This document shows positions 1,143 through 22,798 of a stretch of 26,042 bases of DNA, piece by piece. The notes beneath the pieces are model-generated. The model was not told the origin of the DNA, did not search any database, and saw only the letters and a program-made list of their open reading frames with translations. This DNA comes from a virus. Made by a program: the position numbers and the translations under genes. The stretch lies in IMG/VR virus record IMGVR_UViG_3300048015_000345, positions 1 through 26,042 of that record. One strand, 5' to 3'. Position 1 is the stretch's first letter. Every line of letters begins with the position of its first letter.

Positions 1143-1147
1143 GCCTG

Positions 1148-1153
1148 TATGTA
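1148..1153 (-). promoter_or_regulatory. TACATA box before the XhlA-like gene
   Basis: TACATA on the minus strand, 5 nt (CAGGC) before the ATG at 1142 and immediately after the TGA stop (1154-1156) of the glycosyltransferase gene. It is one of nine such boxes placed 4-5 nt from a start codon. Confidence 0.5.
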
Positions 1154-2665
1154 TCAACGAATCGAACCCCTTTTGCCTCCACACCCGCACCCCTTGCGGG
1201 CCTTCTCAGGCACTTTGACCGGTGCCTTTGTGTCAACATTCAAATGAGCAAACACGGCCCCCCAAACGGCCTCGGGGTTGGTCCATGCACTTTCGGGCAA
1301 TTCAATCATCGTGCCTTTGTTGGCCCCCTTAATCAATTCTTTGTAGCTCCACCAATGATAATGGTTCGGTGGTGAGAACATGATTGTTGGCGTGTCCATC
1401 ATTGCGGCCAAATGCGAAACACCCGTATCACCGCCCAAATAAATTCGGCACTTGCCGAGCAAATCCACAGTGCCTGCGGTCGACCCGTCCGGGTGATCCC
1501 ATGCTCTTGCATCTGCTTCCACGTCAACCGATGTTTCGGGCCGTCCAACCAACCCAACTGTTAAACCGGCAGCACGCAAGCTCTGCACGACCTCAGTCCA
1601 GTGTGTCCAATTTTTTTCTTTCCCGTGTTCCCGATATCGAGGGCATACGGCAACGTCGATGTTGGGCAACACCGATTTCACTGAGGGCATGAATTTCGTT
1701 TCAAGGTGACCCCATGCCCAGGGGTTTGGGTAGTCGCCTTTTAGAATGGCATGATGAGGAAATCTATCGGCAAGAATTGCACGGGTTCTAATGTCATCAC
1801 CGCTACCATCTTCGCACCGGTGACTATCCGGTATTCCCTCAGGCCAATCATAAAAGAACTCAGTTGCATGGGGGTACAAACATTCTTCACCACGGCGGCA
1901 ACACACAACAATGTTTTGGGCATTTAGTTCATGCACCCAACGAACGTGCCGACAAATCATCCAACCGAATTCACCATAGTACGGCATCACAACGGCGTTG
2001 GTTAAATTCCGAACGGGGTGATAAATCGCAGGTTCCTCAGGGTCAACCGGACGTGAATCGGAACGGTAAGTCATTGACCCGCCGCCCGGCAACACCGCAA
2101 TTGGAAAACCGGCCCAATGAATCATCGTGCCGAGGCGAAGCTCGCAATAGGCCCCGCACATAGGCAACTTGCTAACCTCAACCAATGCCCGACGTGAGAG
2201 CATTAACCCCGACATTGGCGAAACGGCAACCGCATGAGGAACCCAATCATTGGGCAGGTTGTTCAACTCATGCCAATACACCCAATCATCACGACCCCTC
2301 AACACCGTATCGGCGGCGGCAGCATCGGCATTCCACACCGACCGATAGAACGAACGAACCCCAACCGAGGCATAGGTGTCATATTCAAGAACGATATATC
2401 GTTGCGCTTCAACACGGGCCGGTGAGTTGAACCATTCCAGAATGACCAAATCCAAATTGGCCCAATTGGAACCACTTGCAACCCGCCGGACCTCAACCGC
2501 ATTAGGCAAGGGGTTAGCCCGATATGAGGCACACGCAGGGCCTCCGTCGTCGCACCATAGGGGAATGATTGGCACGTCGGGATTGTGCCGTTGAATTGAT
2601 TCCAAATTCTGGCAGGTGACCTCATCATTTTTATGGTGCGTAAACAGAATGACACAATCCAACAT
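1154..2665 (-). CDS. Two-domain glycosyltransferase (GT-A-like plus GT9-like)
   Basis: The 503-residue product appears to join two sugar-transfer domains. The N-terminal half (about 1-215) looks like a GT-A nucleotide-sugar fold: it opens with CVILFTHHKNDEVTCQNLESI and has an acidic metal-site-like motif VLEYDTY at 92-98. The C-terminal half (about 220-470) resembles GT-B heptosyltransferase/ADP-heptose-type (GT9) enzymes, with the nucleotide-binding signature GGDTGVSHLAAMMDTPT at 411-427. The protein ends in a short basic Cys/Gly tail (KGCGCGGKR). The ATG overlaps the stop of the GT25 gene (TAATG), so the two are translationally coupled in the tail operon. The family assignment of the N-terminal half is tentative. 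The substrate could be the Ser-rich tail protein or host surface glycans; the sequence does not say which. Confidence 0.75.
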   Translation of the reverse strand: MLDCVILFTHHKNDEVTCQNLESIQRHNPDVPIIPLWCDDGGPACASYRANPLPNAVEVRRVASGSNWANLDLVILEWFNSPARVEAQRYIVLEYDTYASVGVRSFYRSVWNADAAAADTVLRGRDDWVYWHELNNLPNDWVPHAVAVSPMSGLMLSRRALVEVSKLPMCGAYCELRLGTMIHWAGFPIAVLPGGGSMTYRSDSRPVDPEEPAIYHPVRNLTNAVVMPYYGEFGWMICRHVRWVHELNAQNIVVCCRRGEECLYPHATEFFYDWPEGIPDSHRCEDGSGDDIRTRAILADRFPHHAILKGDYPNPWAWGHLETKFMPSVKSVLPNIDVAVCPRYREHGKEKNWTHWTEVVQSLRAAGLTVGLVGRPETSVDVEADARAWDHPDGSTAGTVDLLGKCRIYLGGDTGVSHLAAMMDTPTIMFSPPNHYHWWSYKELIKGANKGTMIELPESAWTNPEAVWGAVFAHLNVDTKAPVKVPEKARKGCGCGGKRGSIR

Positions 2666-3624
2666 TAGACCCCCAACGCCATTTTAATTTCAACAGGCAA
2701 CCGTTCCATTGCCTCATCTATAGAGGCGGCACACACTGAAAAAACCGGGTCCAATGTGTGCGGTTGCAAGGCCATTGCGAGAGCATGAGGGTGAACGATT
2801 GCAACCACCGAACCGGCGGCAAGTGCATCGACCTGGGACTTCTCGATTTGCCCCCTTAGTTTTCCGATATGCAAATCATCGGGCCTTAGAACGGTCAATA
2901 GTTTTTGCCTTGCCATTTCCTCAACAACGTCGTCGGGTGCGTGCAAAATTAAGATTGGCCTTCTATCACCGCCCATGATCCAATGTTCTGACCCCTTATC
3001 TTTGCCCTCGATATCCGACCAACTCGCCCGTTGTCCGGCAATTTGAATGCGAGGCCCATACACTTTATGTGCCTTGCATATGGCACTAATCAAATGATCG
3101 GCATGGCCTGAGGTCGAAACAAAATGCCGGTAGAGGGTCTTACAGAAATCGAGTGTTGCAATGTAGAAGTGTGTGCGGTTCATTCCCGGCAACTTTAGAA
3201 CCCTATCGTTCATCTTTTCCGGCACCCCATCCCAAGGTTGGTAACCGGGCAACAATAGTTCCCAATCATCGGGAACCGATGATAGGAACCGTTTCATTTC
3301 ACCGACAAAGTCACGACCCCGAAGAACCTCAAAATCATCCTCCAACATGATGATGCCGGGTTGGTTGTTTTCAATTGCGGCACCGAGGCATTCTTCGTGT
3401 GACCTCTTGCACCCATAGGCCCCGGACATACCGCCGCCCAAATGCTCAGGGAGCGGCAAGGCCCAACCGTTGATTGCCTGAAATGTTGTAGGCCATTGAA
3501 ATAGTTCGGACCAACTGCAGGCCCTCAATTGTGCGTGAGTATCGGCCAACCGGTCGGTTCTACTCTTTAGGTTGATGAGAAACACGGGCCATGTTTTGAG
3601 GTCCGCAATTGCCCGGTCATTCAT
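2665..3624 (-). CDS. GT25-family glycosyltransferase
   Basis: The 319-residue product shows the landmarks of glycosyltransferase family 25 (LPS-type sugar transferases): VFLINLKSRTDR at 14-25 matching the family's opening strand, GCKRSH at 71-76, and the metal-binding MLEDDFE at 93-99. The rest is typical in size for the family. It has a good ribosome-binding site, GGAGG, 4 nt before the ATG. The start lies 8 nt inside the end of the Ser-rich tail protein gene, and its stop overlaps the next glycosyltransferase (TAATG). In bacteria this family adds galactose or glucose to lipooligosaccharide, and other members modify proteins. Its position directly after a very Ser-rich structural protein makes tail-protein O-glycosylation a reasonable inference. 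Confidence 0.85.
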   Translation of the reverse strand: MNDRAIADLKTWPVFLINLKSRTDRLADTHAQLRACSWSELFQWPTTFQAINGWALPLPEHLGGGMSGAYGCKRSHEECLGAAIENNQPGIIMLEDDFEVLRGRDFVGEMKRFLSSVPDDWELLLPGYQPWDGVPEKMNDRVLKLPGMNRTHFYIATLDFCKTLYRHFVSTSGHADHLISAICKAHKVYGPRIQIAGQRASWSDIEGKDKGSEHWIMGGDRRPILILHAPDDVVEEMARQKLLTVLRPDDLHIGKLRGQIEKSQVDALAAGSVVAIVHPHALAMALQPHTLDPVFSVCAASIDEAMERLPVEIKMALGV

Positions 3625-6327: not shown

Positions 6328-6339
6328 ATTCCCCCAATC

Positions 6340-9009: not shown

Positions 9010-9479
9010 TATTCCTTATGTTCCGGGTTCACAACGACCTCGGCCTTATCGTCATGCTTCAATGCGTCACCGCTGGCGTTGGTAATTGAGGAAATCATAA
9101 AGGTTGCCTCTGTCACCATCTTATCTTTCAACGGGAAACTATCACCAAAAGAGGTCAGAATGCCCCCGTATGTTCTCACGTTGCTATCGGGTGAAGTCAC
9201 TGTCATTTGGCATTGTGTGTTAAGCAGACCATAGATTGCCGCAGCCTGAGCGGCGGAATAGGTGATAGAGATTTCCAATTCACCGCCCTTACCCCAACCC
9301 GGAATCAATTCGGGAATGTTCGTAGGACTATCATATCGTTCAATTTCAACTGGCGTGTAAGTGGTCTTAGGCATTTTGATATCTAAGACCTCGGCCAATG
9401 ATGTAAAGGTGCCTGCCGTGGTCGTTGCGTTGTAACCAACGCTAGTACCCTTACCAATTCGTGCAACTGTAGCTGCCAT
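9009..9479 (-). CDS. Major tail (tube) protein
   Basis: The 156-residue product lies between the tail-completion gene and the tail chaperones, the standard place of the tail tube protein. It starts MAATVARIGKGTSVGYN and has the TSLAEVLDI stretch (about 25-35) and a beta-rich middle (GKGGELEISITYS, FPLKDKMVTEATF) characteristic of siphovirus tube proteins. The ATG at 9479 is chosen over an upstream in-frame TTG (9491) because the TTG lies inside a hairpin and GGGGG stands 6 nt before the ATG. Its stop overlaps the chaperone start. As the tube subunit it should be among the most highly expressed products of this operon. Confidence 0.75.
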   Translation of the reverse strand: MAATVARIGKGTSVGYNATTTAGTFTSLAEVLDIKMPKTTYTPVEIERYDSPTNIPELIPGWGKGGELEISITYSAAQAAAIYGLLNTQCQMTVTSPDSNVRTYGGILTSFGDSFPLKDKMVTEATFMISSITNASGDALKHDDKAEVVVNPEHKE

Positions 9480-9484
9480 TAAAA

Positions 9485-9513
9485 CCCCCAATAGGTGACA
9501 ACCTATCTAGGGG
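9485..9513 (-). promoter_or_regulatory. Hairpin in the leader of the tail tube gene
   Basis: A compact inverted repeat, ATAGGT-gaca-ACCTAT (9491-9506), is extended by CCCC (9486-9489) and GGGG (9510-9513). On the minus strand it ends 6 nt before the tube-gene ATG and is followed by TTTT. It could slow or partly terminate transcription, stabilise the 3' part of the mRNA, or mask the G-rich ribosome-binding site. Confidence 0.45.
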
Positions 9514-9527
9514 TTCACATTGCATTT

Positions 9528-9944
9528 TCATTGGTTGAAGATCATTGTGAACGTCGCACGTTTAATGAATTCGTTAAATGCCTCACTTTCAGTTTCCTGG
9601 GCATCGTCATCACTCACACCATCTTCATCGAGGAAACACCCTTGCACCGTCACACCGCCCCATGTTCCGGCCTGAGAATCTAAAGCACTCACCACGGCCC
9701 AAATGAGGGCATCGGGGTCGTTGTAATTAAGACCAATTGCGGCAATTTCTACCTTGCAGGTCGTGTATCCATCGGTGCCGGAATAGGTTTGCAACGTCGA
9801 TACGTCTGAAATGCGATACACCAACATTGGATAAGTGAGGTCGGCAATACGGGCAAGTGAGGGATAAATACGATTACTCACCAATGCCGTGATGGTGTCG
9901 GTATCCAACAACTGAGAAACAATGGCCTGTGCGGGTGAACTCAT
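9528..9944 (-). CDS. Tail completion protein, DUF3168-like
   Basis: The 138-residue product (starts MSSPAQAIVSQLLDTDTITALVSNRIYP) resembles the DUF3168 family, the tail-terminator/completion proteins of HK97-like and lambda-like phages, with the typical opening of two helices followed by RIYPSLA and a strand ending TYPMLVYRI. It follows the gp10-like gene and precedes the tube protein, as expected. The ATG at 9944 is preferred to an in-frame upstream start, which would overlap the previous gene. TACATA lies 5 nt upstream and no Shine-Dalgarno sequence is visible. Confidence 0.75.
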   Translation of the reverse strand: MSSPAQAIVSQLLDTDTITALVSNRIYPSLARIADLTYPMLVYRISDVSTLQTYSGTDGYTTCKVEIAAIGLNYNDPDALIWAVVSALDSQAGTWGGVTVQGCFLDEDGVSDDDAQETESEAFNEFIKRATFTMIFNQ

Positions 9945-9948
9945 GCAC

Positions 9949-10389
9949 TTATGTAGCGTCACCGCAGGCACTCTCTATTTGGTCCAACCACGAATCAATA
10001 ACGGCCTGTTGAGCGGCCTCCTTGTTTTCCTCAAATGCCTTGCCCAAAAAGTTGTTTGCTGGAATTGATTTGCGTTTGTCACCCAACTTGCGGTTGCCCT
10101 GCTTGTGACCATAGATTAGGAACGAGGCATAAAATGCTTTGCCGGTGTAGTCTTTTGCACCCATACCGACGTTGATTTTAGTTACACCCTTGCCAGCCTT
10201 TCCCGAACGTACCTTGATAGATCGTTTGACCAATCCACTTTCAACCGGTGCCGCCGCCTTTGCCGCCTGTTGAATGATCTTTGCACCGACACGCAGGCCC
10301 TTCTTGATGATGGATCGTTGGACCTTTTTATCAAGTGCCTTTAATTTGGCCTTAGTTGCCTCGATTTGTTGTTCGGTGTTATCACTCAT
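9949..10389 (-). CDS. HK97 gp10-like head-tail/tail protein
   Basis: The 146-residue product has the HK97 gp10 family pattern: a basic helical N-terminal part (KAKLKALDKKVQRSIIKKGLRVGAKIIQQAAK) followed by AAPVESGLVKRSIKVR (about 46-61) and a C-terminal YASFLIYGHKQGNRK ... IPANNFLGKAFEENK segment. These proteins act at the neck, in tail attachment or completion. It is preceded by AAGG about 7 nt before the ATG and follows the head-closure gene by 6 nt, so it is an internal gene of its operon. Confidence 0.85.
   Translation of the reverse strand: MSDNTEQQIEATKAKLKALDKKVQRSIIKKGLRVGAKIIQQAAKAAAPVESGLVKRSIKVRSGKAGKGVTKINVGMGAKDYTGKAFYASFLIYGHKQGNRKLGDKRKSIPANNFLGKAFEENKEAAQQAVIDSWLDQIESACGDAT
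9950..9955 (-). promoter_or_regulatory. TACATA box before the tail operon
   Basis: TACATA, then AGTGC, then the ATG at 9944. The box overlaps the end of the gp10-like gene, whose last codons are ACA TAA. Confidence 0.5.
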
Positions 10390-11438: not shown

Positions 11439-11704
11439 TATTTCTTTTCGACATTGGCCTGTGCCTTTTCATCCTCACGCATCTTTGCAATTCGCTTGTC
11501 TACTTTTGCTTTGCGTTCGTTCTTTTCCTCGTCGCTCAACTTGTCGTCGAATTGGTTCGTTGGTTCGGGGTCATTCTCTAATTTTGCAATGCCCGATTTG
11601 AGGAACCCCTGCAACATTTTATCGTTGTGAATTTCGTAGGTCTTTCCGGCAATGAATACCTCACGTTCGGTTGACAACGAATGAATCATGGTGACTTTTT
11701 TCAT
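11438..11704 (-). CDS. Small highly charged protein at the head of the connector operon
   Basis: This 88-residue protein begins MKKVTMIHSLSTEREVFIAGKTYEIHND and ends in a Lys/Glu/Asp-rich tail from about residue 48. A small gene between the capsid and the gp6-like connector is common in HK97-like phages; the N-terminal part, with an IAGKTYEI strand and a following GFLKSGIAK helix, resembles the small phage proteins often found there. It opens a new unit: it follows the capsid terminator directly and has TACATA 5 nt upstream and no Shine-Dalgarno sequence. Function unknown. Confidence 0.65.
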   Translation of the reverse strand: MKKVTMIHSLSTEREVFIAGKTYEIHNDKMLQGFLKSGIAKLENDPEPTNQFDDKLSDEEKNERKAKVDKRIAKMREDEKAQANVEKK

Positions 11705-11709: not shown

Positions 11710-11715
11710 TATGTA
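11710..11715 (-). promoter_or_regulatory. TACATA box before the connector operon
   Basis: TACATA, then ACCAT, then the ATG at 11704. It lies 13 nt downstream of the T tract of the capsid terminator, where a new promoter would be expected. Confidence 0.55.
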
Positions 11716-11728
11716 GTGAACGTGAAAC

Positions 11729-11756
11729 AAAAAACCCCCGGCATATAGCCGAGGGT
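11729..11756 (-). terminator. Rho-independent terminator after the capsid gene
   Basis: On the minus strand ACCCTCGGC-TATAT-GCCGGGGGT forms a 9-bp stem with one G-U pair, followed by TTTTTTG. It lies 27 nt after the capsid stop and separates the head from the connector unit. Confidence 0.9.
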
Positions 11757-11783
11757 CTTTTGCGTACAGGAACAAAGAACTAA

Positions 11784-13016
11784 TTAGGGAAGAACCAACG
11801 TTGCAATTGCACGAGGATCATATCCGGCGCAACAGAATGCAAAGCTATTGAATCCCTGTTGTGCAGGGCGTTCGGAATAGTTCACGTATCTGGCAACCGT
11901 CTGGTCACCGGCATAGCGAACCTTGAAACCGAGACCCGACATTACAAACCCAACAACCTGCCCGCTAGAACCACCAAGGGCATTAAGGTAGTCAGTAAAG
12001 ACAACCGGGGTGCCATTGAAGAATCGAACATCGAGGTTCTGAGGGTCATTGAAAGTCAACAACGGCTGGCCGGTTGTTGAGACTAAGTTTTCCATAGCCG
12101 ACAGAACCGATTTGTTGACAACAATGACCTTGCGGCTGTTGTAATATTTCGGCAATGCACGGTTGAGGGCAACAAAGTTTGCGTAGGTTACACCGCTATC
12201 GGTCGCAGCACTAATGTGAGTAGTGATGGTTGAATCGGCGGCAATCTGTGCCATTACAGCAGCCTCAAATGCCAATTCACGACCATAGATCAAAGCAGGC
12301 AGCAACTCGCTCAACATATCAAAGTCAACGGCCTGCAATTCCAGCTCGCTAATCCAGGTGGTGTCACTCTGGAAGGTCGTTGGTTTGAGGTCGATGCCAG
12401 TAATGCCCGGCGGATTTTCAGTTTCAACCGTGGCGTTTTCCGAAACGGTCGAACCTGCTGTAGGCAAGGCAATTGGGTAAGTGATTTCACGGGTCGTTGC
12501 CGTTACCAGCGGTGACATACCAACGGCGGCAAGGGCCTGCACGAGGGTGTTAGGTGCCGTTGGGGTGATGAGGTCAAGAACATCCTTAGGGTATGCGATA
12601 CCGTTGGAGGTCGTTGAACTAATCGTTGCACCGGTTACGGCAAATTTCTTGCGAGGATCGCCAGCGGTTTTGCCCCAATAGTCCAATGCACTATTGAAGG
12701 TCTTTTTGCCCTCGGCGGTTTTGAAGAAATCGAGTGACTTAACCGAATTCTTGACTTCAATTTCGGTTTCCTCTTTACCGGGAACCTCAGTTGGCAGAAC
12801 GATTTTCTTTTCGTCTTTAGACTTAAAGGCATCTGACGCAAAGCGGGCATTGCGTTCGTCGAGGTCTTTAATGACCTGCATACGACTAAATGCGTTATCG
12901 CTTTCGGCCTTTTCCTCATTCGTGAGGTCACGTTTTTCTTCGATAGCTTTTGAAAGCAGGGCATCCGACTTGGTTTTGAGGGAATTAAATTCCTCTCTCA
13001 ATACTGAAATATCCAT
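11784..13016 (-). CDS. Major capsid protein, HK97 fold
   Basis: The 410-residue product has the HK97-family layout: an N-terminal helical, charged delta (scaffold) segment (about 1-110), normally removed by the prohead protease, then the capsid domain. Family landmarks include GIAYPKDVLDLI, NTLVQALAAVGMSPLVTATTREITYP, TTWISELELQAVDFDMLSELLPALIYGRELAFEAAVMAQI and a C-terminal GFKVRYAGDQTVARY segment. The ATG at 13016 (MDISVLREEFNSLKTK) is preferred over an in-frame start at 13064, since coiled-coil delta domains usually begin this way. It is followed by a strong terminator, consistent with high expression. The leader between protease and capsid contains a perfect inverted repeat. Confidence 0.92.
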   Translation of the reverse strand: MDISVLREEFNSLKTKSDALLSKAIEEKRDLTNEEKAESDNAFSRMQVIKDLDERNARFASDAFKSKDEKKIVLPTEVPGKEETEIEVKNSVKSLDFFKTAEGKKTFNSALDYWGKTAGDPRKKFAVTGATISSTTSNGIAYPKDVLDLITPTAPNTLVQALAAVGMSPLVTATTREITYPIALPTAGSTVSENATVETENPPGITGIDLKPTTFQSDTTWISELELQAVDFDMLSELLPALIYGRELAFEAAVMAQIAADSTITTHISAATDSGVTYANFVALNRALPKYYNSRKVIVVNKSVLSAMENLVSTTGQPLLTFNDPQNLDVRFFNGTPVVFTDYLNALGGSSGQVVGFVMSGLGFKVRYAGDQTVARYVNYSERPAQQGFNSFAFCCAGYDPRAIATLVLP

Positions 13017-13089: not shown

Positions 13090-13758
13090 TTACCTCAGTG
13101 CAAAAGTATCTAGTGCCAATCTCTTTAATTTCAATTGTGCATCTAACAATTTTGTGTAGGTTGGCACTGGTGGAAGGGCCGGTGTAGGCGGTTCCTTATG
13201 CTCAATATCCGTTGCCGTCATAGCTGGAATTGGTGTAATAGTGACCTCATCGACGGTGAACCTATTCACACTCACAACATCGAGGCCGTTGTCGGTGTCG
13301 TCACCATCGGTGATATCGTAATCCTCAAATCCATTCGCCATTGAAAACGACATACCGGCAACATCACCCCTAGCAACCCAGGCACTGACATCGTTCCCAA
13401 TTTGGGTGCCGAGGTTCAAATCCAATTCGATTGGTATTCCAGTTTCATCGGGTTGACCGATGCGGAGGGATTTATTGGCCGTGGTTCCCAATGGCGTATC
13501 AAACTGATGGTGCCACAGGGCCATTACGGGTGAGGTCCAATTGATCGTTGCATTGTTGGGGATTTGAACGACATAACCGCCTCGGTCGTCTGAGGTCGTG
13601 CCGGGAACGGCGTTGTTGGCAAACACAATCGGATAACCGGTCAATGTCACAATGCCGTTGGTGCCATCACCGGCGGCAAAGGATTTGGCCTTCACTCTCA
13701 GATTGCAACGATGAGCCGAAACGATTTGACGGCCCGAAAACTTTTCACGGTTTTTCAT
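13090..13758 (-). CDS. Prohead (HK97-type) maturation protease
   Basis: The 222-residue product shows the herpesvirus-assemblin-like fold signatures of phage prohead proteases: VTLTGYPIVFANNA near the N-terminus, a catalytic-type histidine region MALWHHQFDTPLG (about 79-91), the serine region GMSFSM (135-140) and the third-residue region DEVTITPIPA (170-179). It removes the capsid delta domain during head maturation. The ATG overlaps the portal stop by 4 nt (ATGA) with a GGGGGGAG ribosome-binding site. The Pro-rich C-terminal segment (PPTPALPPVP, about 191-200) links to a short charged tail. Confidence 0.88.
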   Translation of the reverse strand: MKNREKFSGRQIVSAHRCNLRVKAKSFAAGDGTNGIVTLTGYPIVFANNAVPGTTSDDRGGYVVQIPNNATINWTSPVMALWHHQFDTPLGTTANKSLRIGQPDETGIPIELDLNLGTQIGNDVSAWVARGDVAGMSFSMANGFEDYDITDGDDTDNGLDVVSVNRFTVDEVTITPIPAMTATDIEHKEPPTPALPPVPTYTKLLDAQLKLKRLALDTFALR

Positions 13759-15371
13759 ACTCCCCCCTCATTTGCTTTTGCCTGATTTGTCAGAATTTCG
13801 CTTGCGATTGCCCCGAGGTCCGGTTCATCGTGACCGGCAATGATGCCCCGCACACCGGCGGCATATCGTTCACCCACCGCCTGGGCGGCACCATCGGTGA
13901 CCGGGTGACCCATTGCCGCCAACGTGGCAAAGATCGGTGCGACGGAATCGGTTGCATATCGCTTTTGATCTTCAGCGAACACATTGCCCCAACGGGTAAG
14001 GGCCTCACGGTCGCCACCGTGGCGTTTAGAGGCCGTTTCTAGGGCCTTGGACGTTTTCGACGACACACGGGCCGAGGCATCGGCGAACAATGCGGCAAAG
14101 GCCGTGAGGTCGGGCAGCTTGCGTGATTGCTTTTGCGGTTCATCCTCTTTGCGATCAACCGCCGGTGTTGATGGATCGGTGACAGGCGGCGGGTTGTTCG
14201 TACCGCCCAATGTCGCCAGCTTGTCGGCGTTGGGGTCGGTGTCGGGTGCATAGCCCAACACGTTGCGAGCCTCGTTCGGTGTGATGATTCCCGCCGCCTT
14301 TTGGGCAATCGTGACATTGCTTTCGGTTGCCGTGTCACCACGGATAAGGGCATTGGGGTCGATATGGATTCTCAGGCCCTTTGCCAACTCTGCCGGTGCC
14401 ATCAATTTTGCACTCAATTCCGATTCATCGGCCTCGATGAGGGGCCGGAACAAATCACGCACGACGGCCTGCTGCTGCTGTTCAACGGCTGCGTTGTATT
14501 TGCCCTCGGATAAATCAAACATCATCACAGGCGGCACACCGGTAATTTGTGCAATCTGTTTCGTACTCAGGGATGAAAGTTGAATCGTTTGTGATTGTTC
14601 GTTACTCAGGCCGTTGTTGGTGAAAGTTGCACCATCGCTCAGAATCAACACGTCATTATCAGCATTGGACCCGCTGAATTTAGTCCTAATTGTTCTTTCG
14701 ATTTCCGTCTGCTTTTCTGGAGACAATGCTTTATCAATGTTGATGGTTCCCCGAATAACACCACCCTTAACGAGATAGCGGGTGATGAACCTATCAACGT
14801 GCCTTGCCCGTTCAAATGTCTCGGTTAAGAGTGTGATAGGATTCAATCCTTTAAGGCCGTCATAACTCAGGCCCATTAAGTGGATCATGTCGGCATATGC
14901 GACGACGTGGCAGTTGCGACCTCCGACGTAATACCACGTTGATATATTTCCATCGTCGTCAATCCACCGGAACGGCCAAACCAATTCGGGAAAGTGTTGG
15001 TGCAACTCGACAGGTCGGAATTGAGAATCACGAACAATTTCGGCATAACCGTTGCCCGTGTGCGACCGATGAAAAAACAATGAACGCCAGAAATCAAACG
15101 ACGTTTGATAAGAATTCGGTTTGATGGTCAATAGACTGGTGACGGGATGATTGATATCGACGTTGTTATTTTGAATCGACCTCGGGAACGAGGCCATATT
15201 TGAGGCAATGTAATTCATTGCCCGCCAATAAGACGGGATTGTCAAAACCGAATATGAATTAACAAGTGCGTTCGGCAAGACGTTGGGAATTGAATCGATG
15301 ATATTCATACCACCGATGCCCCCGATTGCCCCTCCGATGCCGTCAAAAGTCTGAAGATTGGTCGTTGCCAT
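13755..15371 (-). CDS. Portal protein, HK97 family
   Basis: The 538-residue product follows the HK97 portal pattern: VLTIPSYWRAMNYIASNMASFP near the N-terminus, HPVTSLLTIKPN, FDFWRSLFFHRSHTGNGYAEIVRD, ADMIHLMGLSYDGLKGLNPITLL, and TKQIAQITGVPPVMM. It forms the dodecameric DNA channel at the capsid vertex. The C-terminal part (about 420-538) is a longer Ala/Ser/charged extension than in HK97 and looks helical; its role is unknown. The ATG at 15371 is preferred over an in-frame upstream start that would overlap the terminase end, because TACATA sits 5 nt before it. No Shine-Dalgarno sequence is visible. Confidence 0.9.
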   Translation of the reverse strand: MATTNLQTFDGIGGAIGGIGGMNIIDSIPNVLPNALVNSYSVLTIPSYWRAMNYIASNMASFPRSIQNNNVDINHPVTSLLTIKPNSYQTSFDFWRSLFFHRSHTGNGYAEIVRDSQFRPVELHQHFPELVWPFRWIDDDGNISTWYYVGGRNCHVVAYADMIHLMGLSYDGLKGLNPITLLTETFERARHVDRFITRYLVKGGVIRGTINIDKALSPEKQTEIERTIRTKFSGSNADNDVLILSDGATFTNNGLSNEQSQTIQLSSLSTKQIAQITGVPPVMMFDLSEGKYNAAVEQQQQAVVRDLFRPLIEADESELSAKLMAPAELAKGLRIHIDPNALIRGDTATESNVTIAQKAAGIITPNEARNVLGYAPDTDPNADKLATLGGTNNPPPVTDPSTPAVDRKEDEPQKQSRKLPDLTAFAALFADASARVSSKTSKALETASKRHGGDREALTRWGNVFAEDQKRYATDSVAPIFATLAAMGHPVTDGAAQAVGERYAAGVRGIIAGHDEPDLGAIASEILTNQAKANEGGV

Positions 15372-15376: not shown

Positions 15377-15382
15377 TATGTA
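15377..15382 (-). promoter_or_regulatory. TACATA box before the portal
   Basis: TACATA, then TCGCA, then the ATG at 15371, in the 23-bp gap after the large-terminase stop. Confidence 0.55.
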
Positions 15383-15394
15383 GGGGTCCAACGA

Positions 15395-17380
15395 TCAAAC
15401 TACCGTGATAGTGCCTCCCCAATCTTTCGACGGTTCAATTGCGGATCGTTTGGCCTCAGTAAGTGCCGTCACCAATGCGGCAATGCCGTCAATCTTTGCC
15501 CCCCTACGGCCCTTGTAACCATCACCGCCCTTAGTCCCTCTATACCCCGGTTTCACAGGCCAATATCCGCCATGTTTACCGGGTTCTACTTCCACCACTT
15601 CTGCGTGCGCCCTCAACACGGCGTTGGCCTCTATGGTGATACTCCCCTCAGTTAATCTTCTATCCGCCTCAACACACCCAGGCGATACTGAGAACCCCTG
15701 CGCCACCGGCACACACGTCAAACCCTTTTGTTCCAACTGATAAATGACGGCATCGGCCTTATATCGGTCATATCCAACCGTGGTGATTGGGTGTCGTTGG
15801 TGAAGGTCAATGACCCATTGGGCAATACGAGCCTGCACCGCCGGTGTGATCGTCGTTTCATCCAACAACGTGATTGCACCCAATGCCGCCCATTCGTAAT
15901 ACTGGTGACCCTCAGATTTTTGGTACTTGTCCGCCGTTGCCCGTGGCAACCAAAAATGGGATTGAATGTAAACCCGGTCACTTGACCAATAGACGGCAAC
16001 GGCGCAGCACAGGTCATCACCCTGAGATAGATCGAGGGCAACGGTGAGGGTCAACCCTTTGACGGACTCAGGATCAACCGGCCCGGTGTTGGCGTCCCAT
16101 TTCTTTAAGTCAAGCCATTTCGTTGTTGCTTGAACGTGTTGCCCCAAATATAGCTGCCGCCATTCTCTCTCCTGCTCAGGTAAACCCTTCCGGCGTTCCC
16201 ATTCCTTTTGCAAGGCATCTTCCGTGATTGTTACTCCAATCATCGGGTTGGCCTTACGCCATGTTGCAGGATCGTCTATAGGATCGTCCGGGGCAGCTTG
16301 CCAAAGGATCGGGTACAAACCGGGGTCAACTCGCTTGCCGCTGAGAACATCTTCAGCCTCGGCTTGCATGATGCCGTAAAGACCGTCACGGGTTGTGCCG
16401 GTGTTGGTCGCAATCCATGTTAGGGGTTCGGGCCGTTTGATAGTTCTACTTTGTAGGTCGTTGAATGCCTCGGCATTTTTGTTTTGGTGACATTCTTCAA
16501 ATATGATTACACCGGCAGCGGCACCGGCCTTCGGACCTTTGCCCGAAACAATGTCCCAAATGGTGCCGGTCAATTTGTTTTTGATCGAATATTGGTTGAT
16601 CTTAGTTCGATTGAACAATGCCGGTGAGGCTCGAATCATTTCCTTTGCCGGTTCAAAAGTCACCCGGTTTGATTGGGCATAGTCGGAGGCAAGGCAAAAA
16701 ATTTGGTTGCCCGGTTCTGAGCCTAAATAAAATTCATATAAAGCCGCAATCACAAGGATCGGGCTTTTGCCGCAACCGATTGAACCGTTCCAGAATACAC
16801 GTTTTATGCGACGTAATTTTGTCTCACGATGTTTGTAGCCCCACACATCCCTGAGGATTCGTTTCTGTATCTCCGTTAATTCAAAAGGCTGCCCCTTCTT
16901 TCGCCCCCGTGTGAACTTTATATATTTGGCGACAAATTTGATCGGACGTTCGGCGGCATCGGCATCGTAGTAATAGGTTTCATCCTCGGTGAGGTCCAAC
17001 ATTCCCGAGACATAAGGCCGCTGGGGTTCGGGTTCGGTTTCCTGAGCCGTTAAGATGTTGTGACAACTCACACACACCGGCATGAGGTTCGATTGATCGG
17101 TCTTTTCGTATTCGTCGCATTGCGCAAGGGGTTTTATATGATGCACATGCACGGCCCAGGTGTTTTGGCACCGACGGCACGTTGGCGAAATCGAAAGTGC
17201 CTCGGCACGGGCTAATTGCCATGCCTTAGAATTGTAAAATGCCTTTGCCTCAGGGTTCCTTAGATGTTGATCGTAAAAGCTATTCTTGCGAGCGGTGACC
17301 TGGGGTTGATGTTTTGAACACCAACCGGATTTAGTGAGTAATTCGGGGCAACCTGAGTGACGGCAGTGAAAACTTGGCAC
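15395..17380 (-). CDS. HNH endonuclease-large terminase fusion protein
   Basis: The 661-residue product begins with a full phage-type HNH protein: a CxxxxC...CxxH zinc knuckle (C6, C11, C21, H24) followed by the ββα-metal HNH unit with C68/C71, HVHHIKP at 78-84, N98 and CVSCHN at 103-108. After an acidic linker (about 112-140) the large terminase continues in the same frame: Walker A GSIGCGKS (199-206), Walker B VIIFEE (291-296), a nuclease Asp in ALDLSQGDD (448-456), GYDRYKADAV (536-545) and the C-terminal AKIDGIAALVTAL motif (628-640). In HK97 these are two adjacent genes whose products cooperate in cos cleavage. The GTG start lies 4 nt from a TACATA box. The gene is alone between a 196-bp gap and the portal. 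Confidence 0.92.
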   Translation of the reverse strand: MPSFHCRHSGCPELLTKSGWCSKHQPQVTARKNSFYDQHLRNPEAKAFYNSKAWQLARAEALSISPTCRRCQNTWAVHVHHIKPLAQCDEYEKTDQSNLMPVCVSCHNILTAQETEPEPQRPYVSGMLDLTEDETYYYDADAAERPIKFVAKYIKFTRGRKKGQPFELTEIQKRILRDVWGYKHRETKLRRIKRVFWNGSIGCGKSPILVIAALYEFYLGSEPGNQIFCLASDYAQSNRVTFEPAKEMIRASPALFNRTKINQYSIKNKLTGTIWDIVSGKGPKAGAAAGVIIFEECHQNKNAEAFNDLQSRTIKRPEPLTWIATNTGTTRDGLYGIMQAEAEDVLSGKRVDPGLYPILWQAAPDDPIDDPATWRKANPMIGVTITEDALQKEWERRKGLPEQEREWRQLYLGQHVQATTKWLDLKKWDANTGPVDPESVKGLTLTVALDLSQGDDLCCAVAVYWSSDRVYIQSHFWLPRATADKYQKSEGHQYYEWAALGAITLLDETTITPAVQARIAQWVIDLHQRHPITTVGYDRYKADAVIYQLEQKGLTCVPVAQGFSVSPGCVEADRRLTEGSITIEANAVLRAHAEVVEVEPGKHGGYWPVKPGYRGTKGGDGYKGRRGAKIDGIAALVTALTEAKRSAIEPSKDWGGTITVV

Positions 17381-17384
17381 CCCT

Positions 17385-17402
17385 TATGTAGGTGACTACA
17401 TA
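17385..17402. promoter_or_regulatory. Two-sided TACATA box between terminase genes
   Basis: The perfect inverted repeat TATGTAG-gtga-CTACATA gives one TACATA on each strand. On the minus strand it lies 4 nt before the large-terminase GTG (17380); on the plus strand it lies 5 nt before the ATG at 17408. This is the only symmetric copy and suggests divergent initiation. Confidence 0.55.
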
Positions 17403-17407
17403 CCGAT

Positions 17408-17557
17408 ATGCGTTTAGTCGAAATCATTGACCTATGGGAATCTAGTCGAAATGTACCTTACACAATTGAGACGACCTGCCCAACAAGTGTAAGGCTCCGA
17501 TGTTGTTGCCATCGTGTTGCCATCGTGTTGCCATCGGTTCGATTTGGAACATCTTAG
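17408..17557 (+). CDS. Possible 49-codon plus-strand gene in the terS-terL gap
   Basis: A short frame starting at an ATG exactly 5 nt after the plus-strand TACATA box runs to the TAG at 17555-17557. The product begins MRLVEIIDLWESSRNVPYT and ends basic and Cys/Val-rich (RLRCCCHRVAIVLPSV). It covers the three 11-bp repeats. The only support is the correctly spaced box; there is no recognisable family and no Shine-Dalgarno sequence. It may be a leaderless small gene or chance. Confidence 0.3.
   Translation: MRLVEIIDLWESSRNVPYTIETTCPTSVRLRCCCHRVAIVLPSVRFGTS
17415..17452 (+). repeat. Direct repeat TAGTCGAAAT x2
   Basis: TAGTCGAAAT occurs at 17415-17424 and again at 17443-17452, 28 bp apart, beside the terminase gap box. 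It is a possible protein-binding site. Confidence 0.5.
17504..17536. repeat. Three perfect tandem copies of an 11-bp unit in the terS-terL gap
   Basis: TGTTGCCATCG is repeated exactly three times, one helical turn apart, at 17504-17514, 17515-17525 and 17526-17536. Regularly phased repeats next to terminase genes are candidate packaging (cos/pac) recognition elements. Confidence 0.75.
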
Positions 17558-17576
17558 ATAAGGTTGTTGACCGTTC

Positions 17577-17927
17577 TTAAACTTCCAATTCTTCCGGTTC
17601 GTCGGCGGTGAGGTCAAACCCCCTTGCATTTGGTGTGAGGCCCAAATCGGCTAATGTTCCCCTGAGCATCTTTGTCGTTTCGCCCCAATTCTTATACCAA
17701 GGTGACGGCCCCATTACGCCGTTACTATATTCCATCGTCTGCCCGTCACTCAAAACCCGTTGATATGCCTCACGGTTGATTTGCCACGTCTGGCAATGTT
17801 GAACCATGATTGCACGGTCGGCATTGTTGAGCCGTCCGAGGTCGGTTAGTTCCTGAGTGATTCGTTGCCATTCTTTCAGGGACTCACCCTTTAGGATCGT
17901 TGGAGGTTTAATGTTGTTAGTTGGCAT
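17577..17927 (-). CDS. terS: Terminase small subunit, P27 family
   Basis: The 116-residue product has the P27-type small-terminase pattern: PTILKGESLKEWQRITQELTDLGRLNNADRAIMVQHCQTWQ (about 9-49), then a DGQTMEYSNGVMGPSPWYKNWGETTKMLRGTLADLGLTPNARGF segment. Such proteins recognise packaging sites and load the large subunit. Its start overlaps the end of the preceding small gene by 11 nt. The 196-bp gap to the large terminase is unusual, as these two genes normally abut, and the gap holds the repeats and a two-sided TACATA box. Confidence 0.85.
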   Translation of the reverse strand: MPTNNIKPPTILKGESLKEWQRITQELTDLGRLNNADRAIMVQHCQTWQINREAYQRVLSDGQTMEYSNGVMGPSPWYKNWGETTKMLRGTLADLGLTPNARGFDLTADEPEELEV

Positions 17928-18150: not shown

Positions 18151-18155
18151 AATGT

Positions 18156-18161
18156 TATTTA
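18156..18161 (-). promoter_or_regulatory. TACATA-like box (TAAATA) before the small-terminase unit
   Basis: TAAATA, then ACATT, then the ATG at 18150. It has one mismatch from TACATA with the usual 5-nt spacing. Confidence 0.4.
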
Positions 18162-18939: not shown

Positions 18940-18947
18940 TATGTTCC

Positions 18948-20708
18948 TCAATTCAGAATGTCACTATTCACACCCGCAACGACAGTTCCTGCCGTTCCAC
19001 TCACACTATTTGAACCCGCAATGACCGTTTGTTGATCGTAGAATTTGCCTTCTTGCAATTTGACGTGTGACACCAAATCGGCGGCAAGTAATGCGTGTCC
19101 CTCAGTGTTTGGATGGACCTGCAACCCTGCGGCGGTCGTGCTGTATTGCGTTGTCGTCGATGTTAGGAAACCATAGTTTCGAGACGACAAATCGTAATAG
19201 CTGGTTTTATCATCGCCAGAAAAGGCCGTTTTGTACGCATTGAAACCGTTTAGAATTGCCGTGTTTACTGTGGTCACATTGTCAGAACACAAAATCGTGT
19301 TGTCACTTGGCGATGCCCAAACGATGAGCGTATTTGCACCAACTTTATTGCGAATAGTCGTGAGCATCGACGTTACATCATTCGCTAATGTCGTTGCACT
19401 TGCACCACCGTCATTAGTGCCATGACAAATCAAAACATAGTCGGGTGTGCCGAAATTCCTGGCATTCACCGAATCATACATCGTGAAAGTGTTGATAAAT
19501 GATGGTGCAGGATTTGGTGACGATGCCGATTTCTGTACGCCTTGCCCTGAGTATGCAACGATTCCAGTTTCGGCGTTTAATCCGTGTCCAACCAATGCCG
19601 CAAAACTCAACTGACAAGCATTACCGCCAAGTGACGTGCAATTGTAACCTCGGGTGATAGAGTCACCGAAAATCAATGCCTTCTTAGGCCGAATGGTTGC
19701 GTTGCCAGTTGGTGCGACGAATCCTGCACCTGCACCGTAATCGGTTTGAATGCCGCTGATCCTCACACCGTCAAAACTAGTTCCAATATTCCAAGTGTTA
19801 TTCTCGGCATTTGGTTCAAAACGAATTTCGGCATTGTGACCGAACACCGGCGCACCACCGGTGATGTAATACATTCCTGAGGTCGTCAATTGCGTCTTTA
19901 CCCAAGGGCCATTATCCAAGCTCGACAGAATCCACGGATAAGACGAATCACCAATCGGTGAAACATCGACATTGATTCCAATTGTCGTGCCGGTTGTCCC
20001 TACTTTGATGCCGTTGCCCGTGTGCATCCATTCAAGACTTGTACCTGGGTTGATGTAGTGACCCGGTGTGAGTCCGAGGCCGATGCTATCTGGCGGCAAC
20101 ACGTTCGTTGCGGCACCCTGATAAACGAAAAGGTTCTTAATTTGGATTCCGGCGGTATCGGTGGAATTGCTTCCGCCGAGCGGACCCGATTCAATCGTGA
20201 CGAAATTACCGAACGTCAAACCGCTGGGATATGACATCGATGCCTGCGGTGAACCGTTGATGGTGTATGAAATCGTTGATGATGAGACGAAGAATTCAAA
20301 ATGGTATATCGTTGGTGCGCTCGAATTGCCCGAGGTCAAGTTCAAACTCTGCGTGTGCAAATTTCCAACCGTATCCATTCTGTAAAGAACGATTGACCCG
20401 TTTTCAGTGTATCGCAATTCAACACCGCCAGTATAAGGATTGCCAGCGGTCGCAGAACCAATCACGATTCCCATATATCCGCCAAGTTGTGACGGCACTT
20501 GTATATCGAAACTAACGACCGTACCTGCCGACGATGTTGTTGCCGGAACGGCAATATATGCCTGTGTTCCTGAGTTGTTTCGCAACCAACCCGAGGGCGT
20601 AATCGTGTATGCACCCTGAGTAACGGTGTAATTAGAATTATATGCGGTAAGGTTAAGATCGGCACCGGTTGCGTTGTTGAATAAGTCAGAAAAGATCAGT
20701 GATGACAT
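18948..20708 (-). CDS. Tail spike with C-terminal SGNH/GDSL hydrolase
   Basis: The 586-residue product has a beta-rich N-terminal half (about 1-200) resembling a LamG/concanavalin-type carbohydrate-binding domain, then a linker (about 200-340) and an SGNH/GDSL hydrolase domain (about 343-555). Hydrolase landmarks are IFGDSITRGYN (block I, nucleophile Ser350), GTND at 430-433 (block III) and VHPNTEGHALLA (block V, His532). The acid that usually stands three residues before the His is not there (Leu529), so activity could use another residue or be weak. Such enzymes remove acetyl or other ester groups from surface polysaccharides and serve phages as depolymerase-like spikes. It sits outside the main tail module, in the methyltransferase unit. 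Confidence 0.75.
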   Translation of the reverse strand: MSSLIFSDLFNNATGADLNLTAYNSNYTVTQGAYTITPSGWLRNNSGTQAYIAVPATTSSAGTVVSFDIQVPSQLGGYMGIVIGSATAGNPYTGGVELRYTENGSIVLYRMDTVGNLHTQSLNLTSGNSSAPTIYHFEFFVSSSTISYTINGSPQASMSYPSGLTFGNFVTIESGPLGGSNSTDTAGIQIKNLFVYQGAATNVLPPDSIGLGLTPGHYINPGTSLEWMHTGNGIKVGTTGTTIGINVDVSPIGDSSYPWILSSLDNGPWVKTQLTTSGMYYITGGAPVFGHNAEIRFEPNAENNTWNIGTSFDGVRISGIQTDYGAGAGFVAPTGNATIRPKKALIFGDSITRGYNCTSLGGNACQLSFAALVGHGLNAETGIVAYSGQGVQKSASSPNPAPSFINTFTMYDSVNARNFGTPDYVLICHGTNDGGASATTLANDVTSMLTTIRNKVGANTLIVWASPSDNTILCSDNVTTVNTAILNGFNAYKTAFSGDDKTSYYDLSSRNYGFLTSTTTQYSTTAAGLQVHPNTEGHALLAADLVSHVKLQEGKFYDQQTVIAGSNSVSGTAGTVVAGVNSDILN

Positions 20709-21015
20709 TAGGCCCCTTTGGTAATTGTTTCTTTCGTGGTCGTTTCACCACGGGTTTATCTAGGGGCCTGAGATAGTGTTTTCGTGGCATCGGACCTTCA
20801 CCGCAATAATGCCTTGCGACGTTCCTGAGGTAATCCAACCATTCGGCGGCATACATTGGATTCAATCCCAATCGCTTGCCGATTATTGAGACTTTGACCT
20901 TGTGCCGGTTGCGGGTGTAGTTGCTGGAATCACAAAGCAGGTCAATGATGCGTGACAAATCGGGGTCGGTTCTCAGGAGGTCTATGACCTCATCACTGTC
21001 GATTGCTGGTGCCAT
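20686..21015 (-). CDS. Hypothetical protein, possibly DNA-binding
   Basis: The 109-residue product starts MAPAIDSDEVIDLLRTDPDLSRIIDLLCDSSN, has a helix-turn-helix-looking segment (KVSIIGKRLGLNPMYAAEWLDYLRNVARHY, about 41-70) and ends basic (RPRKKQLPKG). It begins 3 nt after the methyltransferase stop and runs 23 nt into the spike gene. A role in DNA binding is suggested only by the helix pattern and charge. Confidence 0.55.
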   Translation of the reverse strand: MAPAIDSDEVIDLLRTDPDLSRIIDLLCDSSNYTRNRHKVKVSIIGKRLGLNPMYAAEWLDYLRNVARHYCGEGPMPRKHYLRPLDKPVVKRPRKKQLPKGPNVITDLF

Positions 21016-21018
21016 TCA

Positions 21019-21741
21019 TTAGTTGAGTTGGGCCTCGTTGATTCTTTGCCGTGCAATCTCAAAATAATCCTCATCCTTTTCGATGCCGATGAATTTGCGA
21101 CCGGTTCGCACGGCGGCAACACCGGTTGTGCCTGAGCCTAAACAGCAATCCAACACCGTATCACCGGGGTTGGAATAGGTTCGGATTATCCATTCCGCCA
21201 GTGCAACCGGTTTTTGTGTTGGGTGTTGTTTCGTGCTTTGACGTTCTGAGGGAACACGCACGATTGACCTGGGGTAATATTCGGTAGTGTAGGTTGATGG
21301 TGTGTTTTTGTAAGGGCCATAACAATCGGACAACGTTCTGCCGCCGCCTTTGTTGTGCCTTTTCCCTTGCACCATTTGAGGGTTGTATGTTGACCTGCGG
21401 ATCGGGCTAAAGATCAAAAGTGATTCGTGATTCCTGAGCGGTTTTCTTTTGCAATCCAAATGCCCGGTTGTGCCGACTTTGTCCCAAATTAGATCGTACA
21501 AAAACCATTTGGGATTTGAGTTGTACAGCGTGGCCGTGAACGGCATTGCACTATTTAGGACGATGCAACCCCTCGGGTGAATGATCCTGCGGAATTGTTC
21601 CCAAAGTGGCGCAAAGGGTATCAAATTATCCCAACCGCACTTTGTTACAGCAAAAGGCAAATCGGTTGCAATTAAATGGCAACTGGCATCGGGCAAGGTT
21701 GGTAGAATGTTGAGGCAATCGCCATGATGTAAGTCTATCAC
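21019..21741 (-). CDS. DNA methyltransferase (beta-type N6-adenine/N4-cytosine)
   Basis: The 240-residue product has the circularly permuted beta-class order: catalytic motif first, SAM-binding motif last. The catalytic motif reads ATDLPFAVT (about 25-33), a DLPF variant of the usual DPPY, and the SAM motif is DTVLDCCLGSGTTGVAAV (about 193-210). The middle has TQKPVALAEWIIR (about 174-186), as in other phage solitary methyltransferases. No restriction partner is present, so a protective or regulatory role in phage DNA is likely. The GTG at 21741 is preceded by TACATA 5 nt upstream and no Shine-Dalgarno sequence. Confidence 0.85.
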   Translation of the reverse strand: MIDLHHGDCLNILPTLPDASCHLIATDLPFAVTKCGWDNLIPFAPLWEQFRRIIHPRGCIVLNSAMPFTATLYNSNPKWFLYDLIWDKVGTTGHLDCKRKPLRNHESLLIFSPIRRSTYNPQMVQGKRHNKGGGRTLSDCYGPYKNTPSTYTTEYYPRSIVRVPSERQSTKQHPTQKPVALAEWIIRTYSNPGDTVLDCCLGSGTTGVAAVRTGRKFIGIEKDEDYFEIARQRINEAQLN

Positions 21742-21746
21742 GGACG

Positions 21747-21752
21747 TATGTA
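21747..21752 (-). promoter_or_regulatory. TACATA box before the methyltransferase unit
   Basis: TACATA, then CGTCC, then the GTG at 21741. It is part of CACCTACATA, also seen at 17385 and 22041. Confidence 0.55.
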
Positions 21753-21762
21753 GGTGACCTTT

Positions 21763-22035
21763 TCAGTTTCTGGCGGTTCCCCGTTTTGCCCGCTTCTCAA
21801 TCCTTCCAATTCTGGCGGTGAGGTCTTCCAACACTGGCAGAAAATATTTTTCTAGTCCCTCGATTAAATGGTTGAGCCGTCTATCAACCATGTCATTGAC
21901 TTCGTTCTGGAATTCGTTGTGCCGCCCAATTGTTTCCCAGATAGCTGTTCGCTCTGTGTTTAATTCCTTTTTCAGCATTTTGACAAGTTCAAAGTTGTTG
22001 GAAATCGCACCATTCATGTTCTTAAGTTGATCCAT
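21763..22035 (-). CDS. Small coiled-coil protein
   Basis: The 90-residue product (MDQLKNMNGAISNNFELVKMLKKELNTE...) is helical and charged with heptad-like spacing of hydrophobic residues (NEVNDMVDRRLNHLIEGLEKYFLPVLEDLTARIGRIEKR, about 45-83), so an oligomeric coiled coil is likely. The ATG at 22035 is chosen because TACATA lies 5 nt upstream; an in-frame upstream extension would overlap the opposite-strand HNH gene. No family is recognised. Confidence 0.6.
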   Translation of the reverse strand: MDQLKNMNGAISNNFELVKMLKKELNTERTAIWETIGRHNEFQNEVNDMVDRRLNHLIEGLEKYFLPVLEDLTARIGRIEKRAKRGTARN

Positions 22036-22040
22036 GCCAA

Positions 22041-22046
22041 TATGTA
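22041..22046 (-). promoter_or_regulatory. TACATA box before the coiled-coil gene
   Basis: TACATA, then TTGGC, then the ATG at 22035. It lies in the narrow space between the minus-strand start and the plus-strand HNH gene start. Confidence 0.5.
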
Positions 22047-22047
22047 G

Positions 22048-22488
22048 GTGCCTCACTCTAAATATTGGGTGAGAACATGGCGGAACTATAGTTGCCCTCA
22101 GTGTGGGGCCGTTCGGGTGATGGTGAATAAGACCCAGCACGAAGGCCGGTTGTGCCGGAAGTGTTCAATGGTCAACCGGCATGGTTCGGGTTCCAAATAT
22201 GTTTCCCGCCTGAGGTTTCAAACATGGCGGGTCAATGCTGGCAAACGGGGTTTAGTTTGGCAAATCACCGAGGCCGACATAGATGCCCTTTGGGAGGCTC
22301 AGGGAGGCCGTTGCCGGTTCACGGGGTTGCAGTTGGGTGACGATGCAAGTTTGGATCGGATCGACAACGACCTCGGCTATTTCGTTGGCAATGTCCAGTT
22401 GGTAGGCCGGGCGTTGAACATGGCAAAGGGGTCAATGACCGATGAACAATTCATTGAACTATGCCGGGCCGTAGTTGCGAACCAATAA
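22048..22488 (+). CDS. HNH-type (homing-like) endonuclease, lone plus-strand gene
   Basis: The 146-residue product has an N-terminal zinc ribbon (C16xxC19 ... C36xxC39), a middle region ending in EAQGGRCRFTGL (about 84-94), and the HNH-like ββα segment SLDRIDNDLGYFVGNVQLV (about 101-119) with NMAKGSMTDEQFIELC after it. This is a common form of phage HNH protein, often mobile (free-standing homing nucleases). The GTG at 22048 is the first start after an in-frame stop. The minus-strand terminator just downstream would stop opposing transcription before it runs antisense through this gene. No TACATA box precedes it, so its expression route is unknown. It may have arrived independently. Confidence 0.8.
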   Translation: MPHSKYWVRTWRNYSCPQCGAVRVMVNKTQHEGRLCRKCSMVNRHGSGSKYVSRLRFQTWRVNAGKRGLVWQITEADIDALWEAQGGRCRFTGLQLGDDASLDRIDNDLGYFVGNVQLVGRALNMAKGSMTDEQFIELCRAVVANQ

Positions 22489-22524
22489 AAAAGCCCGGCG
22501 GTGAAGGTAAAAACACCGCCGGGC
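22487..22524 (-). terminator. Strong rho-independent terminator of the small-gene unit
   Basis: On the minus strand an 11-bp perfect stem, GCCCGGCGGTG paired with CACCGCCGGGC around a 10-nt T-rich loop, is followed by TTTTTTATTGG. It ends the transcript of the 73-codon gene and protects the plus-strand HNH gene from antisense reading. Confidence 0.92.
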
Positions 22525-22565
22525 CTAAGTTGGTTCCCACCGTCCAAGGAGGTAACAACTCCTTA

Positions 22566-22787
22566 TTATAGTGCCGCCATTCTTTTTTTTCGATCCTCAA
22601 TTGCCGCACGTTCTTTTAGTCCAGCGTCAATAGCCCGTGCTGCATCGTCACGGCGTGCGGCAAACCGTTTGACCCAGCTTCTACTTTTGCCCAAACGGTA
22701 GAGTGCGGCACGTTGGGCCGTGGTTGAGGCCGTTGCAACGGCATAGTCGGCATTCAATTCGGTGAGGTCTAGGGGTGCCGTTTCCAT
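22566..22787 (-). CDS. Small Ala/Arg-rich hypothetical protein
   Basis: The 73-residue product (starts METAPLDLTELNADYAVATAST) is helical and basic in its second half (RSWVKRFAARRDDAARAIDAGLKERAAIEDRKKRM). TACATT, a one-base variant of the box, lies 5 nt upstream and a strong terminator follows, which supports a real monocistronic unit. It directly follows the iteron region. No family is recognised. Confidence 0.55.
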   Translation of the reverse strand: METAPLDLTELNADYAVATASTTAQRAALYRLGKSRSWVKRFAARRDDAARAIDAGLKERAAIEDRKKRMAAL

Positions 22788-22792
22788 GTTTT

Positions 22793-22798
22793 AATGTA
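22793..22798 (-). promoter_or_regulatory. TACATA-like box (TACATT) before the 73-codon gene
   Basis: TACATT, then AAAAC, then the ATG at 22787. It lies between the iteron region and the gene. Confidence 0.45.

Follow-up and report, generated by a model that had tools for sequence, protein, structure and literature searches.

The window analysed here, which is the whole of the 26,042-base virus record IMGVR_UViG_3300048015_000345, carries a TACATA box 4-5 nt before the start codons of genes that open transcription units. In all likelihood, and judging from sequence, this box is a phage-specific promoter element of the -10 type that functions without a -35 element, answers to an RNA polymerase specificity dictated by the phage and gives rise to leaderless mRNAs. 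The presence of the start-linked boxes is itself confirmed, and a layout with the same spacing built on TAAATA occurs in a second, distant phage family.

Start-linked boxes in the window phage

Positions 1-666 of the window (plus strand) contain a fragment of a host yifB/comM gene (77% protein identity to Phycisphaerales genomes), and from about position 730 onward the window is occupied by a minus-strand block of tailed-phage genes. Because the host fragment is followed by this block, the window is interpreted as a Phycisphaerae provirus, the right end of which is missing. In addition to the packaging and head genes listed in Table 1, the block encodes tail genes, a methyltransferase and a primase of the prim-pol type. 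In the large terminase subunit gene an HNH endonuclease is fused N-terminally, while HNH and terminase occur as separate ORFs in the relatives inspected (e.g. L157 and L158). Two glycosyltransferase-like genes (families 9 and 25; 1154-3624, minus strand) are located at the end of the tail block. An HNH/endonuclease VII-like gene (22048-22488, plus strand) lies antisense between boxed genes, and its product displays weaker PHROG matches to T4 Srd-type anti-sigma/sigma70-decoy families that are perhaps due only to the HNH fold.

All coordinates given in the first-pass annotation proved right, both for the TACATA copies, located 5 nt before six start codons and 4 nt before that at 17380, and for the TACATT and TAAATA variants, both at 5 nt (Table 1). 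No further TACATA exists on the minus strand, as it had also reported, so that all seven minus-strand copies are found 4-5 nt before a start codon. The distance from the first base of the hexamer to the start codon is 10-11 nt, and the start codon is ATG or GTG in every case. The sole plus-strand copy (17397-17402) forms a 7-bp inverted repeat with the terminase gene box, and the intergenic gap involved (17380-17577) contains these two head-to-head boxes together with a tandem repeat of ca. 11 bases (TGTTGCCATCG). A TAAATA-N5-ATG inside the methyltransferase gene is probably a chance occurrence and possibly an internal start.

The overall number of TACATA copies is ordinary, with 8 in the window vs 5.15 +/- 2.63 in shuffles. 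When all hexamers were scanned at spacings of 2-12 nt before ATG or GTG over the whole window, TACATA-N5-RTG came out as the top hexamer/spacing pair (7 of 8 copies, P = 4e-10 to 6e-10); in this unbiased scan none of 300 dinucleotide shuffles matched it, the best of them giving 1.2e-8. The conserved core is CTACATA: of the 10 window sites, 9 have a C immediately before the hexamer, and 9 have an A at hexamer position 6 (as TAAATA does by definition). Further upstream of the core, no position shows clear column conservation across the 10 window sites, which is the basis for considering a -35 element absent, as had been noted. TGn precedes the box at one of the 10 sites only, namely 1148.

Two small tests, each opposing 9 boxed genes to 19-20 others, agree with the earlier description of gene organization. 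Calculated anti-Shine-Dalgarno (anti-SD) pairing is weak for boxed genes (one-sided Mann-Whitney, p = 0.0009) and strong in most unboxed genes, those inside units having SDs or overlapping starts as described, and the upstream gap of boxed genes has a median of 79 nt vs ca. 0 (p = 0.0003), in line with a unit-opening position. For the 88-aa gene at 11704, the U-run of the preceding terminator lies ca. 24 nt from the ATG, and the only promoter-like element in between is the box.

Many SDs of the window read GGGGG or GGGGGG instead of GGAGG (2665, 5434, 6327, 8163, 8342, 9479 and 24723, minus strand). One of these sites is associated with a terminator-like hairpin (9474-9530, minus strand; -22.5 kcal/mol, z -4.1) that ends in GGGGGUUUUA immediately 5' of the ATG of the tail tube gene (9479) and whose right arm doubles as the sole SD of that gene; attenuation or translational control is possible at this location.

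Table 1. Boxes, terminator and selected genes of the window
Feature	Position	Strand	Context
TACATA box	1148..1153	-	5 nt before ATG 1142 (136-aa gene 732-1142); directly after the stop of the upstream gene
CTACATA box	9950..9955	-	5 nt before ATG 9944 (tail completion/terminator gene); overlaps TAA stop of the upstream gene (CTACATAA at 9949)
CTACATA box	11710..11715	-	5 nt before ATG 11704 (88-aa gene after capsid gene)
Intrinsic terminator hairpin with U-run	11727..11763	-	Between capsid gene and box 11710; -27.2 kcal/mol, z -6.9
Capsid gene	11784-13016	-	Named from PHROG match
Portal gene	13755-15371	-	
CTACATA box	15377..15382	-	5 nt before ATG 15371 (portal gene)
HNH-terminase large subunit gene	15395-17380	-	
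CACCTACATA box	17385..17390	-	4 nt before GTG 17380 (HNH-terminase large subunit gene)
CTACATA	17397..17402	+	5 nt before ATG 17408 (49-aa ORF, probably no gene)
Terminase small subunit gene	17577-17927	-	
CTAAATA variant box	18156..18161	-	5 nt before ATG 18150 (77-aa gene overlapping terminase small subunit gene)
TAAATA-N5-ATG	21552-21557	-	Inside methyltransferase gene
CACCTACATA box	21747..21752	-	5 nt before GTG 21741 (DNA methyltransferase gene)
CACCTACATA box	22041..22046	-	5 nt before ATG 22035 (90-aa gene)
CTACATT variant box	22793..22798	-	5 nt before ATG 22787 (73-aa gene)

TAAATA boxes in a distant phage family

Relatives of the window phage were gathered from Phycisphaerae genomes and IMG/VR by means of terminase, portal, gp10-like and connector proteins, and many were found whose packaging and head proteins are 30-50% identical. 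The idea that related phages would carry the same hexamer was borne out only in part: no close relative with the TACATA layout was found, but the distant G399 family has TAAATA at equal spacing. No box occurs in L176/L425, L256, L157, L158 and L424, whose proteins are 40-50% identical, and this speaks against the promoter reading. The single TACATA-N4-ATG of L256 belongs to an AAGG SD and was discarded, and none of the TACATA copies present in L424 lies before a gene. An IMG/VR search with the exact extended box TCACCTACATANNNNNATG returned at least 120 hits, corresponding to AT-rich phages with chance copies, none of which shows the programme. L488 was picked out when the de novo scan used on the window was run on each locus. 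When TANATA hexamers were tested on ca. 425 loci, two strong cases only emerged, the window and L488, the latter with TAAATA (P = 2e-8 at 4-5 nt). L488 is part of G399 (IMGVR_UViG_3300048929_000773, 35,251 bases).

In G399, TAAATA-N4/5-RTG occurs 12 times on one strand vs 0 and 1 for the reversed control. Three relatives of this phage (L514, L515 and L516), with portal proteins 85%, 85% and 69% identical, contain 5, 2 and 9 occurrences vs 0 for the control. Since the family was found after testing many loci and these three relatives were not used for finding it, the significance of the G399-family result rests mainly on conservation in L514-L516. As in the window, boxed genes of G399 are devoid of SD (p = 0.0007). 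All 11 orthologous starts compared among G399, L514 and L516 have retained the box, as far as the contigs reach, and these starts belong to a 79-aa gene, the terminase small subunit, portal, major capsid, a 72-aa gene, an 85-aa gene, major tail, tail tube, tape measure and two more; over the same comparison, identity between G399 and L516 averages only 34% in the 25 nt upstream. In nine of the 11 orthologous genes the box is found 4-7 nt from the start with no clear SD. The remaining two, encoding the major capsid and major tail proteins, have the box 31-38 nt upstream, with an SD (TTGGAG, GGAGC, AGGAG) between box and start. The terminase large subunit and protease genes are unboxed in all phages of the family compared.

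The G399-family box reads G[A/C]TAAATA, with a preferred extension giving GATAAATA or GCTAAATA, and no clearly conserved upstream column that would correspond to a -35 was detected in 24 sites of the family. At boxes 17740, 20252 and 28772 of G399 (L511/L512), the TAA of TAAATA also serves as stop codon for the gene upstream. Two further genes of this phage encode a reverse-transcriptase-like protein and a HigB-type toxin (L511 9723-10469 and 7535-7867, respectively, minus strand).

The window phage and G399 are only distantly related (portal 24% and terminase 24% identical). The portal gene and a small post-capsid gene are boxed in both the window phage and the G399 family, the head genes of both phages having been named from PHROG matches, and in both a terminator-like hairpin and its T-run (read by eye in G399, L514, L515 and L516) immediately precede the small post-capsid gene. 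Given the one-base difference between the boxes and the distance between the families, no common descent is claimed for the two systems; the TACATA layout is known from the window phage alone, and its replicate is another family with a box that differs by one base. The named phages nearest to G399 (Rhizobium, ca. 40% identity; Labrenzia) have no box.

Promoter, ribosome signal or operator

In the two closest host genomes compared (G001 and G002), TACATA-N5-ATG has no match, and CTACATA-N4-6-RTG, which occurs 7 times in the 26-kb phage, is found once in each (7.3 Mb together) vs 31 and 36 occurrences (67 in total) of the reversed control pattern. Since the motif is nearly absent from these two genomes, the box is regarded as the phage's own. 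Use of the box by the host was considered and discarded, the few CTACATA-N4-6-RTG matches in G001-G003 falling inside genes or before tiny ORFs. Over 0.6 Mb of host sequence, no TACATA was found before genes; SDs occur at ca. -10 to -14 and TANNNT is in mild excess at -12 to -15, which perhaps reflects some leaderless host genes.

This excess, together with a leaderless bias suggested for Planctomycetes (PMC5397173), would suit a situation in which, as in Deinococcus and Actinobacteria, leaderless promoters are read by the host housekeeping sigma, the box serving as a poor -10 and nothing being dedicated to the phage. Such a situation is unlikely, as host relatives do not place TACATA before genes, the box has no T at position 6, and the second family has independently fixed TAAATA with an equal defect. 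The A stands in place of the T that varies least among bacterial -10 elements; this is a point against a -10 reading and the reason why TACATA is not simply a host -10. The term "-10-like element" used in the first-pass annotation needs correcting in this respect, for position 6 of TANNNT. That an AT-rich hexamer clustered by chance and was selected post hoc is hardly credible: the hexamer was indeed spotted by eye and its total count is unremarkable, but after correction for all hexamers and spacings it is still above every shuffle, and the layout is replicated by a conserved second family.

The box occupies the SD position of genes that have no SD, and could in principle be a ribosome-recruiting or translation-control sequence replacing the SD on longer mRNAs. 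A phage precedent exists in the start-associated sequence of cluster K mycobacteriophages, a repeated 13-bp motif (GGGATAGGAGCCC) that contains an SD and lies 3-7 bp before starts (PMC3203893). Both are phage-specific, repeated, asymmetric, in one orientation, a few nt before many starts and absent from the host, but the present box differs in sequence and has no SD core, and that of the second family also sits at a distance with a separate SD. What argues for a promoter and not a ribosome signal is this displacement: at the major capsid and major tail genes, 31-38 nt separate box and start, and an SD then appears. Pairing with 16S rRNA as a non-SD signal was also rejected, the complement of CTACATA being absent from six related 16S rRNAs (taken from same-class genomes, the three nearest MAGs having no 16S gene). 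Finally, the gene at 11704 and its G399 counterparts lie directly behind terminators, so that a promoter is needed within the same few nucleotides. A ribosome signal is on these grounds disfavoured and quite improbable. It is very improbable that the box is no promoter core but a site (operator or stoperator) to which a phage repressor or another DNA-binding regulator would bind. The sites are asymmetric, strand-biased and genome-wide, like the many short asymmetric stoperators found in one orientation in cluster A (PMC6550527), and two boxes make up an inverted repeat at 17385-17402. However, the boxes differ from stoperators in sequence and length, they are palindromic at only one of about ten sites, and they keep a spacing to start codons fixed to within 1 nt that operators do not need; an operator would also leave the loss of SDs unexplained. 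Stoperators are targets of the immunity repressor of the phage, and no repressor gene was recognised in the window.

The promoter reading of the box can be compared with several known systems, and the literature searched contained no promoter type described for planctomycete phages. For a -35-less box with a TAAATA core, the nearest known design appears to be the T4 late promoter, an 8-bp TATA box (TATAAATA) at the -10 position with no -35 (PMC2988020). The likeness to these gp55/gp33/gp45-dependent promoters lies in a simple box without -35, presumably at the -10 position, and the last six bases of the T4 box are the TAAATA of the second family. Compared with the 8-bp T4 box, the window CCTACATA matches at 5 of 8 positions and the commonest G399-family form GATAAATA at 7 of 8, the position fitting only if the start codon is taken as +1. 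The window box would then span -11 to -6, which corresponds to the 3' portion of the T4 box provided that the latter covers -13 to -6, as deduced from A(-13) and the 8-bp length. Differences from T4 are that the box abuts start codons here, with mRNAs predicted to be leaderless, that the window box is TACATA, that the stretch following it is not AT-rich, and that the context is that of a siphophage or prophage. TANNNT-led leaderless genes of Deinococcus-Thermus and Actinobacteria have a -10-like motif ca. 10-12 nt before the start and no SD (PMC3160421, PMC12340547). The window boxes likewise come without an SD and begin 10-11 nt ahead of the start codon, but they carry A where those genes have the T of position 6, and they are phage-specific, with hardly any copies in host relatives. 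The middle/late promoters of Thermus phage P23-45 are gp39-directed, -35-independent and served by a switched host RNA polymerase at an extended -10 (PMC7403470); -35 independence is shared, whereas the TGn of the extended -10 is nearly always missing from the window sites, and no gp39-like gene was recognised.

Proposed mechanism and significance

The reading of the box as a dedicated promoter yielding leaderless mRNAs, already put forward in the first-pass annotation, is supported by the leadered genes with SD behind the same box in the G399 family and by the succession of terminator, box and start. An RNA polymerase with phage-set specificity would recognise CTACATA in the window phage or G[A/C]TAAATA in the second family without a -35, and would start transcription ca. 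6 nt downstream of the box, on the first base (A or G) of the start codon. The resulting mRNAs would have no leader and would be translated without SD from a 5'-terminal AUG or GUG, which suffices for leaderless initiation in mycobacteria (PMC4633059). About nine such promoters would split the minus-strand block into units for DNA packaging, portal, head-tail, tail and accessory genes, the genes inside a unit being translated via SDs or overlapping starts. Where the box lies 31-38 nt off, as for the capsid and tail genes of the G399 family, a leadered mRNA would use its SD. We infer promoter activity, the exact start site, the timing, which is probably late, and a sigma specificity that is phage-encoded or phage-modified.

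The proteins scanned in the window and G399 included no recognisable sigma, RNA polymerase or known specificity factor, nor was any gp55, gp33 or clamp gene recognised; the window lacks its right end and the contigs may be fragments. Proteins of the gp55 type are very divergent. A 109-aa protein (20686-21015) considered as a possible regulator was set aside, with a predicted fold (pLDDT 59.6) too low for use.

The shared layout in two distant families suggests a little-known way to switch on phage genes. Tentatively, temperate siphophages whose hosts are unrelated to each other (planctomycetes and probably proteobacteria) may share a phage-specified polymerase specificity for -35-less TA(A/C)ATA, with the start codon as first mRNA nucleotide, functionally like T4 late transcription. 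If so, they would run late expression across the whole genome on leaderless mRNAs, by means of a small sigma or sigma-remodelling factor yet to be discovered. Many leaderless structural genes would be an unusual programme for any phage, and the contrast seen in the second family, in which an adjacent box comes without SD and a distant one with SD, makes the coupling of promoter position and translation mode directly testable. The boxes point to a phage transcription-specificity factor and supply a working rule by which the starts and units of such phages can be called.
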